Below are positions 21,315 to 26,846 of a stretch of DNA of 58,063 nt, piece after piece (the stretch's first letter is position 1; every line of letters begins with the position of its first letter). The position numbers and the translations under genes were made by a program. A model generated the notes under the pieces. It worked only from the letters and a program-made list of their open reading frames with translations. It had not been told where the DNA came from and made no database searches. Source of the stretch: Pseudomonadota bacterium. GTDB taxonomy: Bacteria > Pseudomonadota > Gammaproteobacteria > Burkholderiales > Burkholderiaceae_C. The stretch spans positions 1 to 58,063 of the forward strand of contig JAUNUR010000014.1 of NCBI GenBank assembly GCA_030538085.1. The letters are read 5' to 3'.

Positions 21315-21493
21315 GGGCGCAAATTATCCCATCGGGTCTTTGGACGTGCGGCCGGCAGGCCTTCAGGGCGCCGCAGCAGGCCGGTTGGCACCGGTGCGCC
21401 GGATAGAATTGAGGGCTTCGCGGCCTGCCCCAGTCAGCGGCAGGCTGCACGACCCCGAACCGCCTTTTGCCGCGCCTCATCCGGCCCTTCGAC

Positions 21494-24400
21494 GTGACCC
21501 AGCACATCCACTTCTTCGACGGCGGCAACGCCCTCAGCGACTTCCGCATCCGCCAGCTTCTGCCGCGCCTGCAGGCCGTGAATCCGGCGGTGGACAGCCT
21601 CGGCGCGCGCTACGTGCACCTGGTCAATTTCAGTGCCGCGCCGCCAGCAGCCGACCTGGAGCGGCTGACCGCGCTGCTGACCTATGGCGACCCGGCCGCC
21701 GAAGGTGCGGAAGGCGAGGTTGTCATCGTCGCGCCGCGTCTGGGCACGGTGTCGCCCTGGGCGTCGAAGGCCACCGACATCGCACGCAACTGTGGCATCG
21801 CGCTGCACCGTGTCGAGCGCATCGTTGAATACAAAATAGGTCTCAAGCGCAAGCTGGTCGGGCGCAACCAGCTATCAAAAGATGATTTGATCGCCATGGC
21901 CGCACTGCTGCACGACCGCATGACGGAAAGCGTGCTGGCCAACCGTGAGGAGGCGAGGGCGCTGTTCACCGAACTCACGCCCGAGCCGCTGGCGCACGTC
22001 GACGTGCTGAAAGGCGGCCGTGCGGCGCTGGAGCAGGCCAACGGCGAATGGGGCCTGGCGCTGGCGGCGGACGAGATCGACTACCTGCTGGATGCCTTCA
22101 CCAAACTGGGCCGCAACCCCACCGATGTCGAGCTGATGATGTTCGCGCAGGCCAACAGCGAGCACTGCCGGCACAAGATCTTCAACGCCGACTTCACCAT
22201 CGACGGCGTGCCGCAGGACAAGAGCCTGTTCGGCATGATCCGCCACACGCACGCCACCAGCCCGCAGCACACCGTGATCGCCTACAGCGACAACGCGGCG
22301 GTGATGGAAGGCCATGCGGTCGATTACTTTGAAGTCAAATCGGCCTTTGGCGCAGACAAAGCAAGCGCACGAAGCTATCAAACCGAGAGCGCCACGCGCC
22401 ACGTGCTGATGAAGGTGGAGACGCACAACCACCCCACGGCCATCAGCCCCTTCCCCGGCGCCAGCACCGGCGCGGGCGGCGAAATCCGCGACGAGGGCGC
22501 CACCGGACGCGGCGCCCGGCCCAAGGCGGGGCTGACGGGCTTCACCGTGAGCAAGCTGTGGGATTCGACGCTCGGCAAGCCCGAGCACATGGCGAGCGCC
22601 CTGCAGATCATGACCGAGGGGCCGCTGGGCGGCGCCGCGTTCAACAACGAATTTGGTCGGCCCAACCTGCTCGGCTATTTCCGCGAATACGAACTCGAAG
22701 CCGGCGGCGTGCAGCGCGGCTACCACAAGCCGATCATGATCGCCGGCGGTGTCGGCAGCATCGACGCGCGGCTGACGAGCAAGATCGAATTTCCCGCCGG
22801 CAGCCTGCTGATCCAGCTGGGCGGGCCGGGCATGCGCATCGGCATGGGCGGCGGCGCGGCCTCGTCGCTCGCCAGCGGCACCAATGCCGCGCACCTGGAT
22901 TTCGACTCGGTGCAGCGCGGCAACCCCGAGATCCAGCGCCGCGCGCAGGAAGTGATCACGCAGTGCCAGGCGATGGGCGAGGCCAACCCCATCCTGGCGA
23001 TCCACGACGTGGGTGCGGGCGGTTTGTCGAACGCCTTCCCGGAACTGACCCACGACGCCGGGCGCGGCGCGAGGTTCGATTTGCGCGCCGTGCCGCTGGA
23101 AGAAAGCGGCTTGGCGCCCAAGGAAATCTGGAGCAACGAGAGCCAGGAACGCTACGTGATGGCGATTGCGCCAGAATCGCTGCCGCTGTTCGAGGCGCTG
23201 TGCGCGCGCGAGCGGTGTCCGTTTGCGGTGGTGGGTGTCGCCACAGAGGAGCGGCAACTGGTGGTCGATGATGCGCCGCTGCCCCTCACCCCAGCCCTCT
23301 CCCCAGAGGGGCGAGGGAGTAACAACCGGGGATCGAACTCGGCGCTGGAATCACCCCCTCTCCCGCTGGCGGGAGAGGGCCGGGGTGAGGGTGGCACCGC
23401 CGTCGACATGCCCATGGACGTGCTGCTCGGCAAACCCCCGAAGATGCACCGCGACGTTAAGACCGTGCAGCGCCAGTTCACGCCGCTGAATCTGGACGGC
23501 GTGACGCTGCAGGACGCCGTGATCAACGTGCTGAGCCACCCCACCGTCGCCAGCAAGCGCTTCCTCGTCACCATCGGCGACCGCGCGGTGGGCGGCCTGA
23601 CGCACCGCGACCAGATGGTCGGCCCCTGGCAGGTGCCGGTGGCCGATTGCGCCGTCACGCTGGCCGATTTCAAGGGCTTTGCCGGCGAGGCCATGAGCAT
23701 GGGCGAGCGCACGCCGCTGGCCGCGCTGGATGCGCCCGCGTCGGGCCGCATGGCGGTGGCTGAGGCCATCACCAACCTGCTGGCGGCACCCATCGAGCTA
23801 CCGCGCGTCAAGCTGTCGGCCAACTGGATGGCCGCCTGCGGCGAACCCGGCGAGGACGCCGACCTGTACGCCACCGTCAAGGCCGTGGGCATGGAGCTGT
23901 GCCCGGCGCTGGATGTGTCGATCCCGGTCGGCAAGGACAGCCTGTCGATGCGGACGCAATGGCAGGACGGGCAGGGTGCGACGAAGAAGGTGACCTCGCC
24001 CGTCAGCCTGATCGTGAGTGCCTTCGCCTCGCTGGCCGACGTGCGCGGCACGCTGACGCCGCAACTCGACGCGCAGACGGAAGACACCACGCTGGTGCTG
24101 GTCGACCTGGGCAAGGGCCGCCATCGCCTGGCCGGCAGCGTGCTGGCGCAGACGCTGGATCAGTCCGGCTGCCCGGTGAAGGATGGCGTGCCCGATCTGG
24201 ACAGCCCTCAGGATCTGAAGGCCCTGGTGACTGCCATCAACCAGTTGCGCGCCGAAGGCAAGCTGCTCGCCTACCACGACCGCAGCGATGGCGGCCTGCT
24301 GGCGGCCGTGGCCGAAATGGCCTTCGCCGGCCAGGTGGGCATGGCGCTGAACATCGACATGCTGGTGACCGAGGGGGACGGCATCAGCGACAGCCGCGCC

Positions 24401-25705
24401 GAATACGGCGATGCCAAGAACTGGGCCAGCCAGGTCAGCGCCCGGCGCGAAGAGCTGACGCTGAAGTCGCTGTTCTGCGAGGAGCTGGGCGTGGTGCTGC
24501 AAGTGCGCACGTCTGAGCGCGATGCCGTGATGCAGGTGCTGCGCGCCCACGGCCTGAGCAAGTGGAGCCACTACATCGGCAAGACGCGCCCCGCCAGCTC
24601 GTCCATCGATATGGGCAAGGGCGCCCTGAGCATCTGGCGCGACACCAAGGAAGTGTTCAGCGCCAGCCTGCGCGACCTGCAGCAGGTGTGGGACAGCGTG
24701 AGCTGGAAGATCGCCCGCGAGCGCGACAACCCCGCCTGCGCCGATGCCGAGCACGAGGCGGCCGGGCAGCCAAACGACCCCGGCTTGCACGTGCATTTGA
24801 CCTTCGATGCGGCGCAGCCCCTCACCCCCACCCTCTCCCCAGAGGGGCGAGGGGGCAATACCAGCGCGGACTCACTCCCTCTCCCGCCTGCGGGAGAGGG
24901 CAGGGGTGAGGGCGCGCCGCAAGGCGCAGGCATCCTTTTGGCCCGCCCCAAGGTCGCCATCCTGCGCGAGCAGGGCGTCAACTCGCACGTCGAGATGGCC
25001 TATGCCTTCCACGCCGCGGGCTTCGAGCCCTTCGACGTGCACATGACCGATCTGCAGGCGGGCCGCGCCAACCTGGCGGAGTTCAAGGGCATCGTGGCCT
25101 GCGGCGGCTTCAGCTACGGCGACACGCTGGGCGCGGGCATCGGCTGGGCGCGCTCGATCATGTTCAACGATCAGATCGCTGACCAGTTCAAGGCCTTCTT
25201 CGCGCGGGGCGACACCTTCGCGCTGGGCACCTGCAACGGCTGCCAGATGTTCGCCGAGCTGGCCGACATCATCCCGGGCGCCGAAGACTGGCCGCGCTTC
25301 ACCACCAACGTCAGCGAGCGCTTCGAGGCACGCTTCTCGCTGGTCGAGGTGCTGGATTCACCCAGCATCTTCTTCCAGGGCATGGCCGGCAGCCGCCTGC
25401 CGATTGCCGTGGCGCACGGCGAGGGTTATGCCAACTTCAAGTACCGCGGTGATGCCGACAAGGTGATCGCGGCCATGCGCTTCGTCGACCACCACGGCGC
25501 CGCCACTGAACAGTACCCTTTCAACCCCAACGGCAGCCCCGGCGGCCTGACGGCGGTGACCACGGCCGACGGCCGCTTCACCGCGCTGATGCCGCACCCC
25601 GAGCGCGTGTTCCGCAACATCCAGGCCAGCTGGACGCCGCTGGACAAGAACGCGCAAAGCCCGTGGATGCAGATCTGGCGCAACGCGCGCAAGTGGGTGG
25701 GTTGA
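21494..25705 (+). CDS. purL: Phosphoribosylformylglycinamidine synthase (single-chain PurL)
   Basis: Fourth step of purine synthesis: FGAR + glutamine + ATP to FGAM. Domain order: N-terminal PurS-like part; helical linker with [18 protein letters not shown]; two AIRS/ATP domains ([57 protein letters not shown]); and a C-terminal glutaminase ([15 protein letters not shown], catalytic Cys1247 in [16 protein letters not shown]). The GTG at 21494 ([18 protein letters not shown]) is chosen because homologs begin near this motif; TTG 21467 is the longer option. The 1403 residues exceed the usual ~1300-1340, partly because palindromic repeats are read through in frame at 23282-23391 and 24818-24912, adding LTP.LSPEGRG...[11 protein letters not shown] peptides at linkers. 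No frameshift is seen. Confidence 0.96.
21829..21885. repeat. Possible AGCTATCAAA-type repeat inside purL (1)
   Basis: GAATACAAAATAGGTCTCAAGCGCAAGC...GCGCAACCAGCTATCAAAAG resembles the Comamonadaceae-style AGCGC/AGCTATCAA repeats in this window (22330-22382, 29575-29630, 42582-42602, 49281-49360). It is translated in frame as [18 protein letters not shown] between conserved PurL motifs. Confidence 0.4.
22330..22382. repeat. Possible AGCTATCAAA-type repeat inside purL (2)
   Basis: GAAGTCAAATCGGCCTTTGG...AAAGCAAGCGCACGAAGCTATCAAA closely follows the reverse complement of the intergenic copy at 29575-29630 (GGGCCTCC...CAGCAAGCGCGAGCAGCTATCAA). It encodes [20 protein letters not shown] in frame, just before the [12 protein letters not shown] motif. 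Confidence 0.45.
23282..23391. repeat. GC-rich palindromic repeat in frame within purL, copy 1
   Basis: Outer arms CCCCTCACCCC and GGGGTGAGGG, second arms CCCTCTCCCCAGAGGGGCGAGGG and CCCTCTCCCGC..GCGGGAGAGGG, with a variable centre. Translated within PurL at about residues 597-633 as [11 protein letters not shown]...[12 protein letters not shown]. The 95 bp sister copy is at 24818-24912; the two differ by 15 bp, a multiple of three. Confidence 0.9.
24818..24912. repeat. GC-rich palindromic repeat in frame within purL, copy 2
   Basis: Same family and same reading frame as 23282-23391. Encodes [11 protein letters not shown]...[12 protein letters not shown] at about residues 1109-1140, immediately before the glutaminase domain that begins near [14 protein letters not shown]. 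Confidence 0.9.
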
Positions 25706-26778: not shown

Positions 26779-26846
26779 CGTCATTGCGGCGAAAGCCAGA
26801 ATCTGAGCGGCGTGTGCCAGGACACATGGATCCTGGCTTTCGCCCA
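26779..26846. repeat. CGTCATTGCGGCGAAAGCC dispersed repeat
   Basis: Left arm CGTCATTGCGGCGAAAGCCAGAATC, right arm GGATCCTGGCTTTCGCCCATAAGCG. Lies in the 275 bp gap between azlD and the dehydratase gene; the rest of that gap (26847-27012) shows nothing I can name. Confidence 0.6.

Follow-up and report, generated by a model that had tools for sequence, protein, structure and literature searches.

We found that purL, a gene essential for growth without purines, contains two copies of a GC-rich palindromic repeat, here designated F1, in a 58,063-nt stretch of DNA from a Pseudomonadota bacterium of the Burkholderiaceae_C (the window; positions 1 to 58,063 of contig JAUNUR010000014.1, assembly GCA_030538085.1, genome G000 below). 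F1 is a multi-copy repeat of this genome, both purL copies are in frame, and the corresponding sites in relatives are empty or differently filled. Very probably, F1 is a DNA-borne element resembling repetitive extragenic palindromic (REP) sequences and bacterial interspersed mosaic elements (BIMEs), which was inserted in frame in two PurL linkers, is translated with the enzyme and has been retained through linker tolerance, with selection acting as a filter. In the proposed mechanism, F1 would spread as DNA in the manner of an interspersed REP/BIME-like palindromic element, and two copies would have landed stop-free and in frame in two inter-domain linkers of purL, where they would be translated as flexible Pro/Gly/Glu-rich loops. 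Selection would filter for frame, absence of stop codons and an intact fold, without acting on the peptide itself, and inserts would be kept because the linkers tolerate changes in length and sequence. The same linkers would thus be permissive landing zones at which other repeat families arrived independently in relatives, once in nested form, and older inserts would later decay in frame or be replaced.

The purL open reading frame (ORF) extends from 21467 to 25702 (with stop codon, to 25705), the first TTG offered by the ORF tool being taken as the start, and residues 15-1412 of its product match the NCBIfam phosphoribosylformylglycinamidine (FGAM) synthase model. A PurL search of G000 gave a single full-length match and four short ones, all four to the insert-peptide regions. 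An earlier inspection of the letters (the sequence-only reading) had placed 110- and 95-bp copies inside purL at linkers, in one orientation and one frame, encoding related peptides and differing in length by a multiple of three. These claims were confirmed: the copies share strand and frame, their length difference is 15 nt, and when the protein is aligned with Salmonella PurL (1t3t) they fall between matched blocks, at 598|605 (linker B) and 1037|1046 (linker C, before the glutaminase domain). The same reading regarded them as two copies of a single palindromic repeat. The repeat is indeed shared, but it is not a fixed unit of 95-110 bp; it consists of two inverted half-units of ~38 nt flanking a variable spacer. 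Each half-unit has CCCTCACCCCNN followed by the stem CCCTCTCCC/GGGAGAGGG, and the reversed unit follows after the spacer. The features are listed below, with comparisons to the congener G001.

21467..25705, + strand: purL ORF, FGAM synthase, 1412 aa (ORF and NCBIfam match).
23282..23391, + strand: F1 pair at linker B, about aa 606-642; hairpin of -75.4 kcal/mol; predicted local distance difference test score (pLDDT) 30-34 in mid-insert.
23282..23319, + strand: left half-unit of linker B (CCCTCACCCC plus stem); half-site, 0 substitutions relative to G001.
23320..23353, + strand: variable spacer of linker B; with both spacers pooled, 11 of 47 sites differ from G001.
23354..23391, - strand: right inverted half-unit of linker B; half-site, 0 substitutions relative to G001.
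24818..24912, + strand: F1 pair at linker C, preceding the glutaminase domain, about aa 1118-1149; hairpin of -68.9 kcal/mol; pLDDT 34-37.
24818..24852, + strand: left half-unit of linker C; half-site, used in the arm comparison with G001.
24853..24874, + strand: variable spacer of linker C; 9-nt indel relative to G001.
24875..24912, - strand: right inverted half-unit of linker C; half-site, used in the arm comparison with G001.
About 22330..22395, + strand: F4, a third repeat, unrelated to F1, in frame at site A; 5 more partial matches elsewhere in G000.

The stem pattern occurred twice in the window and never in 100 shuffled sequences, and the half-site pattern (up to 3 mismatches) occurred four times against a shuffle mean of 0.04; because shuffles do not yield the pattern, its chance origin is excluded. 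The outer arms of the two purL copies are 21 nt long and 95% and 90% complementary, that is, F1 has terminal inverted repeats such as characterize miniature inverted-repeat transposable elements (MITEs). Both copies were predicted to fold into RNA hairpins of unusual stability (z = -5.95 for linker B and -6.21 for linker C), which none of 200 shuffles equaled in either case. Identity of the inserts with a known RNA family was rejected, as no family matched at its gathering threshold in the window; seven sub-threshold matches in 22200-25000, five of them to microRNA models, look like chance hits.

F1 occurs throughout the genome. In G000 (3.50 Mb in 134 contigs), exact F1 half-sites number 119, with 66 in forward and 53 in reverse orientation (0 for a reversed-pattern control); 4 of them are within the window and the remainder elsewhere; the repeat therefore did not originate in purL, and this origin was rejected. 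A BLAST search using the 110-bp unit returned 77 matches, merged into 40 places (40 of 95 candidates were scored), while 100 of the 119 half-sites were among the matches listed in the half-site search. The F1 places read numbered 82 and covered 107 of the 119 exact half-sites; 24 of them had 2 or 3 exact half-sites in alternating orientation. F1 thus has the features of REPs and BIMEs (short GC-rich palindromes present in many copies and frequently paired in inverted orientation) and also those of Rickettsia palindromic elements (RPEs), being palindromic, about 100-150 bp long and in frame within protein genes. Before genes were counted, we excluded 36 of the 82 places, which were half-sites within a MITE. 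This ~120-bp MITE (e.g., L170, L173 and L175) has CTATTGA/TCAATAG ends, measured 120-121 bp in 17 complete copies and bears one central F1 half-unit, as if it had captured the half-unit and then spread. The longest open frame crossing any of these 36 places was 264 aa.

Among the 46 non-MITE places, 19 were inside genes with homology on both sides, corresponding to 15 genes, which are named here by their best-matching families. Three had multiple hits: PurL (2), tandem UvrA (3) and formate dehydrogenase alpha subunit (2). Single hits were found in HrpA, MacB, UvrD, YgiQ, a CopA-type ATPase, CobQ, an AddA/RecB-like helicase, ThiD/ThiE, Tex, a lipoyl-domain dihydrolipoamide dehydrogenase, acyl-CoA dehydrogenase and RsgA. 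Thus, the inserts that had been considered striking in an essential purL are both present but are not special to this gene. Of ten proteins divided at the insert, eight gave matching families for both parts, the exceptions being C33 and C83. Three domain models were cut with little or no loss (RsgA_GTPase 2-92|96-173, Phos_pyr_kin 1-135|144-245 and Tex_central 1-111|117-178), and the UvrD_C model was cut with a gap (1-212 and 263-349). Gene-borne F1 copies are read in several frames, and therefore what was inserted is DNA and not one particular peptide. Such insertion as DNA, filtered for open frames, supports the analogy with RPEs that the sequence-only reading had drawn; it holds as a way of working, i.e., stop-free palindromes in frame in many unrelated genes.

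The UvrA gene (L053:895-7299) encodes a tandem UvrA of 2135 aa, which has three F1 places as well as peptides that looked by eye like those of F2 and F3, two other repeat families described below. The idea of a giant UvrA built by repeats was rejected: this ORF encodes a tandem UvrA, for which the genus commonly has open frames of 1935-2174 aa, and repeats therefore account for only part of its length. UvrA, UvrD, the AddA/RecB-like helicase and HrpA are all F1-bearing, and repair and helicase genes likewise carry unrelated REP families (PMC3733652; here and below, statements on cited papers refer to portions of their text). This overlap may reflect large multidomain proteins instead of repair.

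Relatives showed both empty and differently occupied linkers. Among 29 congeneric genomes including G000, linker B was readable in 27 (all but G008 and G009), and repeat DNA was found in 14 of these, with no recognized repeat in the other 13. F1 occupied linker B in five congeners (G000, G001, G014, G017 and G025), F2, a different GC-rich repeat, in two (G013 and G019), an apparently decayed F2-like sequence in three (G012, G018 and G024) and F3 in three (G004, G005 and G015), the fourteenth being the truncated G027 copy described below; in G014, F2 was nested within F1. At linker C, F1 was present in G000, G001, G005, G014 and G017, and F2 in G019. In G017 this linker is a string of three repeats, F4 followed by F1 and then an F5-like piece. 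Assignments as decayed, F4-like or F5-like were made by eye. The checks proposed with the sequence-only reading turned out in its favor: congeners without repeat DNA had mostly short linkers whose peptides were not the inserted ones, and the repeat did not originate in purL. G011 and G023 had long PurL linkers without a recognized repeat. Reading frames were open across F1 or F2 inserts in seven unbroken congener ORFs (G000, G005, G014, G017 and G025; G013 and G019), and the G001 purL copy reads in several frames. In the single-contig genome G027 (L239; G027:C1:2045600-2052000), purL ends in an F2-like repeat or remnant at linker B, and the second half of the gene was not found in this genome; a break mediated by the repeat would account for it, as would an error of assembly. 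F1 half-sites were present in 21 of 29 congeners, 36 of 150 genomes of a family sample and 67 of 398 of a phylum sample, the G000 count being the highest in each. F1 abundance as a sufficient cause of the PurL inserts was rejected, as F1 is absent from the PurL of G010 and G028, which have 53 and 72 half-sites, respectively.

A similar picture was seen in other genera, for which 80 named PurL loci were sampled; a sequence pattern read linker B in 46 of them, and lengths were redone on an alignment of 75. The linker B stretch, 49 aa in the G000 PurL, had at most 20 aa in 56 of 75 loci and at least 35 aa in 8 (L060, L061, L068, L084, L117, L120, L126 and L133), two of which, L126 and L133, had no recognized repeat; linker C reached 30 aa in 8 of 75. 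F5 was found in the PurL linkers of Limnohabitans (L060 and L068), F6 at both linkers of a Hydrogenophaga metagenome-assembled genome (MAG; L061), F7 (L077) and F3 (L084) in Polaromonas, and F1 in a Comamonadaceae MAG (L117). An Ottowia MAG (L059; best segment 82% identical), which appears to be congeneric with G000, had the same PurL frame length and linkers as congener G013. We examined nine inserts in eight genomes with one joined query, so that copy counts apply to the matches listed. Eight of the nine inserts, in seven of the eight genomes, had further copies in their own genome beyond purL: at least 31 for F2 in G019, at least 33 for F3 in G179 (L084), at least 9 for F7 in G178 (L077), at least 9 and at least 2 for the linker B and linker C inserts of F6 in G177 (L061), at least 3 clear ones for F3 in G005, and at least 1 each for F5 in G176 (L060) and F1 in G180 (L117). 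For F4 in G181 (L080), only the purL copy was among the matches listed. G002 and L062, whose PurL proteins contain none of F1-F3 and F5-F7, gave 31 and 16 matches, respectively, to the joined query as a whole; therefore, genomic repeat presence alone does not fill purL.

The history of the inserts was followed on a quick tree of 37 chosen PurL rows rich in inserts, with linkers removed, a design that cannot separate gain from loss. Linker B required a minimum of 15 state changes and linker C one of 9, and F1 at linker B needed 4 changes even when only well-supported branches were counted. The 15 changes compare with a shuffle mean of 17.1, and values as low occurred in 12 of 200 shuffles, i.e., the states were barely more clustered than in shuffled data. 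Sister rows may have different families; for example, G005 has F3 and G014 has F1 plus F2, and L084 has F3 and L117 has F1. In a comparison of G000 with G001, purL outside the repeats differed at 382 of 4022 sites (9.5%), including 257 of 1342 third positions, and the spacers at 11 of 47 sites, with a 9-nt indel in linker C. The arms (23282-23319, 23354-23391, 24818-24852 and 24875-24912) had no substitutions in 148 sites and one gap (Fisher p = 7.5e-7 for arms versus the rest of purL, with sites taken as independent and arm borders drawn after the alignment with G001 had been viewed). Both F1 insertions in purL are therefore older than the split of the two genomes, and the arms are either maintained by a DNA-level constraint or homogenized by gene conversion.

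Several observations weigh against the insertion and tolerance of F1 as proposed above. The invariant arms imply that neutral tolerance is insufficient alone, so that either gene conversion or a constraint at the DNA level has to be invoked as well. For 27 of the 46 non-MITE places an in-gene position was not demonstrated; besides C33 and C83, these lay close to N-termini or in short frames, or lacked family support. Copies near N-termini (RND permease, LytB, PaaD, EamA and DUF3482 GTPase) may lie upstream of the true start codon. We infer, moreover, that the inserts are translated. They are presumably disordered and harmless to the enzyme: in an AlphaFold model of PurL aa 501-1412, built on an alignment of 41 rows (mean pLDDT 73.8; best PDB matches FGAM synthetases), the inserts (model residues 107-143 and 620-656) scored below 50 and were without secondary structure. 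Conserved stretches, e.g., model residues 201-245, also scored below 50, and for this reason insert disorder is only weakly supported. The movement of F1, presumably by transposition or copying, is not accounted for by the two Y1 transposase genes of the genome. The F1 half-unit (CCCTCACCCCNN plus stem CCCTCTCCC...GGGAGAGGG) has no GTAG/CGTC terminal tetranucleotide, and there were no F1 half-sites within ~3.3 kb around either of the two genes of G000 that matched Y1_Tnp, as would be expected of a REP and its REP-associated tyrosine transposase (RAYT). Accordingly, the candidate that F1 is a GTAG/CGTC REP mobilized by its own Y1 transposases was rejected. A target-site duplication of F1 was not established, the relatives being too diverged to read one.

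Inverted GTGGGAGCGGGCTTGCCCGCGA repeats, closely resembling REPs listed for Pseudomonas putida (PMC2817692), were observed on both sides of one of these two genes, a Y1 (RAYT-like) transposase gene in L038 (about 1251-1440 and 1896-2030). Two other repeats lie in the window itself. F4 at site A had its 5 further partial matches in G000 over 34-56 bases at 80-88% identity; the site A stretch was similar in length in most aligned congeners, F4 showed no unusual RNA folding (z = -0.21), and a search for it on plasmids gave no match. The intergenic inverted repeat GGCGAAAGCCAG...CTGGCTTTCGCC at 26788-26844 is F7-like in style.

The F2-in-F1 nesting and the series of F4, F1 and F5-like sequences raise a further idea, which we consider unlikely: that linkers B and C of PurL are genuine hot spots, reached by unrelated palindromic families above chance, whether through landing on or recombination with resident repeats or through the usefulness of a hairpin at a domain border. 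Successive selfish repeats would then serve a single essential enzyme as recycled, replaceable linkers throughout a bacterial family. Less likely still, the inserts might have been co-opted, with mRNA hairpins at domain borders slowing translation or with the peptides serving as selected spacers. Such use would fit the position of both hairpins at linkers, their predicted stability (-75.4 and -68.9 kcal/mol) and the arms that remained unsubstituted (0/148) while purL elsewhere changed (382/4022 sites, 257/1342 third positions). However, 13 of 27 congeners do without a recognizable repeat at linker B, families of unrelated sequence substitute for one another, and F1 also sits within domains of several other proteins. 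It is very improbable that the segment is absent from the protein, either removed from the RNA or protein or bypassed in translation at the hairpin. A very stable hairpin within a reading frame and the variable insert lengths could suggest it, but the open frames through F1 or F2 inserts in the seven unbroken congener ORFs argue against it, and skipping would require neither the 15-nt difference between the two G000 copies nor the 9-nt spacer indel, both multiples of three. We give almost no credence to the view that convergence of ordinary low-complexity linkers produced the peptides, or that the repeat was derived from purL: peptides rich in G, P and E are common in linkers, and some long PurL linkers have no recognized repeat (G011 and G023; L126 and L133), but all except 4 of the 119 exact DNA half-sites are beyond the window and congener linkers are short. 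An assembly or binning artefact is just as hard to credit, since F1 occurs at the same linkers in the separate genomes G001, G017, G025 and G014, even though G000 is a 134-contig draft, the G001 purL is in several frames and only half of the gene is present in G027.

Insertion of F1 as DNA into tolerant linkers therefore remains our preferred explanation, and PurL may be viewed as a natural record of proteins absorbing selfish-looking or junk DNA. It offers a replicated natural experiment: the structure of this metabolic enzyme is solved, its two linkers have received several unrelated families, some relatives are repeat-free and some copies appear to be decaying. Two questions become testable in this system: whether inserts acquire a use or are simply tolerated, and whether in-gene arms are held by gene conversion. 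Palindromic repeats within genes are already known; that unrelated families repeatedly occupy PurL linkers was not seen in the literature searched. Among the papers listed in searches on purL and palindromic repeats, intragenic REPs in Comamonadaceae, RAYT/REP and RPEs, none described a PurL linker insert, judged by title or abstract start, and when the insert peptide strings were sought in the literature, only the DNA string CCCTCACCCC occurred among the matches listed.

The closest known systems share some of these properties. RPEs, whose original papers are reportedly those of Ogata from 2000 and 2002, resemble F1 in the in-frame insertion of palindromes in unrelated genes. They are ~150-bp palindromic repeats present in frame in many unrelated protein genes, with 44 integrations in R. 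conorii (PMC10969869). RPEs occur in different bacteria, whereas F1 is made of paired short inverted half-units with a variable spacer, and the two are likened by mode of insertion, not by sequence. Enterobacterial RU/ERIC elements are small mobile repeats that maintain reading frames in annotated genes (Delihas 2007, PMC2759123); F1 is similar to them in keeping the frame in genes, while RU/ERIC are MITE-like, 103-168 bp long and enterobacterial. BIMEs, short high-copy palindromes in alternating orientation that are associated with RAYT transposases (Nunvar 2010, PMC2817692), share copy number and alternating orientation with F1, but no F1-flanked RAYT was found here. Intragenic GTAG/CGTC REPs are high-copy monomers or inverted dimers in ORFs, some genes being hit twice, and their hosts include uvrA, UvrD/Rep helicase, recBCD and RNA helicase genes (Di Nocera 2013, PMC3733652). 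Common hosts with F1 are UvrA (three times here), UvrD, the AddA/RecB-like helicase and HrpA; in contrast, F1 lacks the GTAG/CGTC tag and no RAYT was seen adjoining it. The portions of its main text considered here do not name purL as a REP host. They describe differing REPs at about one site in recB of two Xanthomonas species, whereas in PurL such site sharing extends over several genera and involves six or more repeat families.

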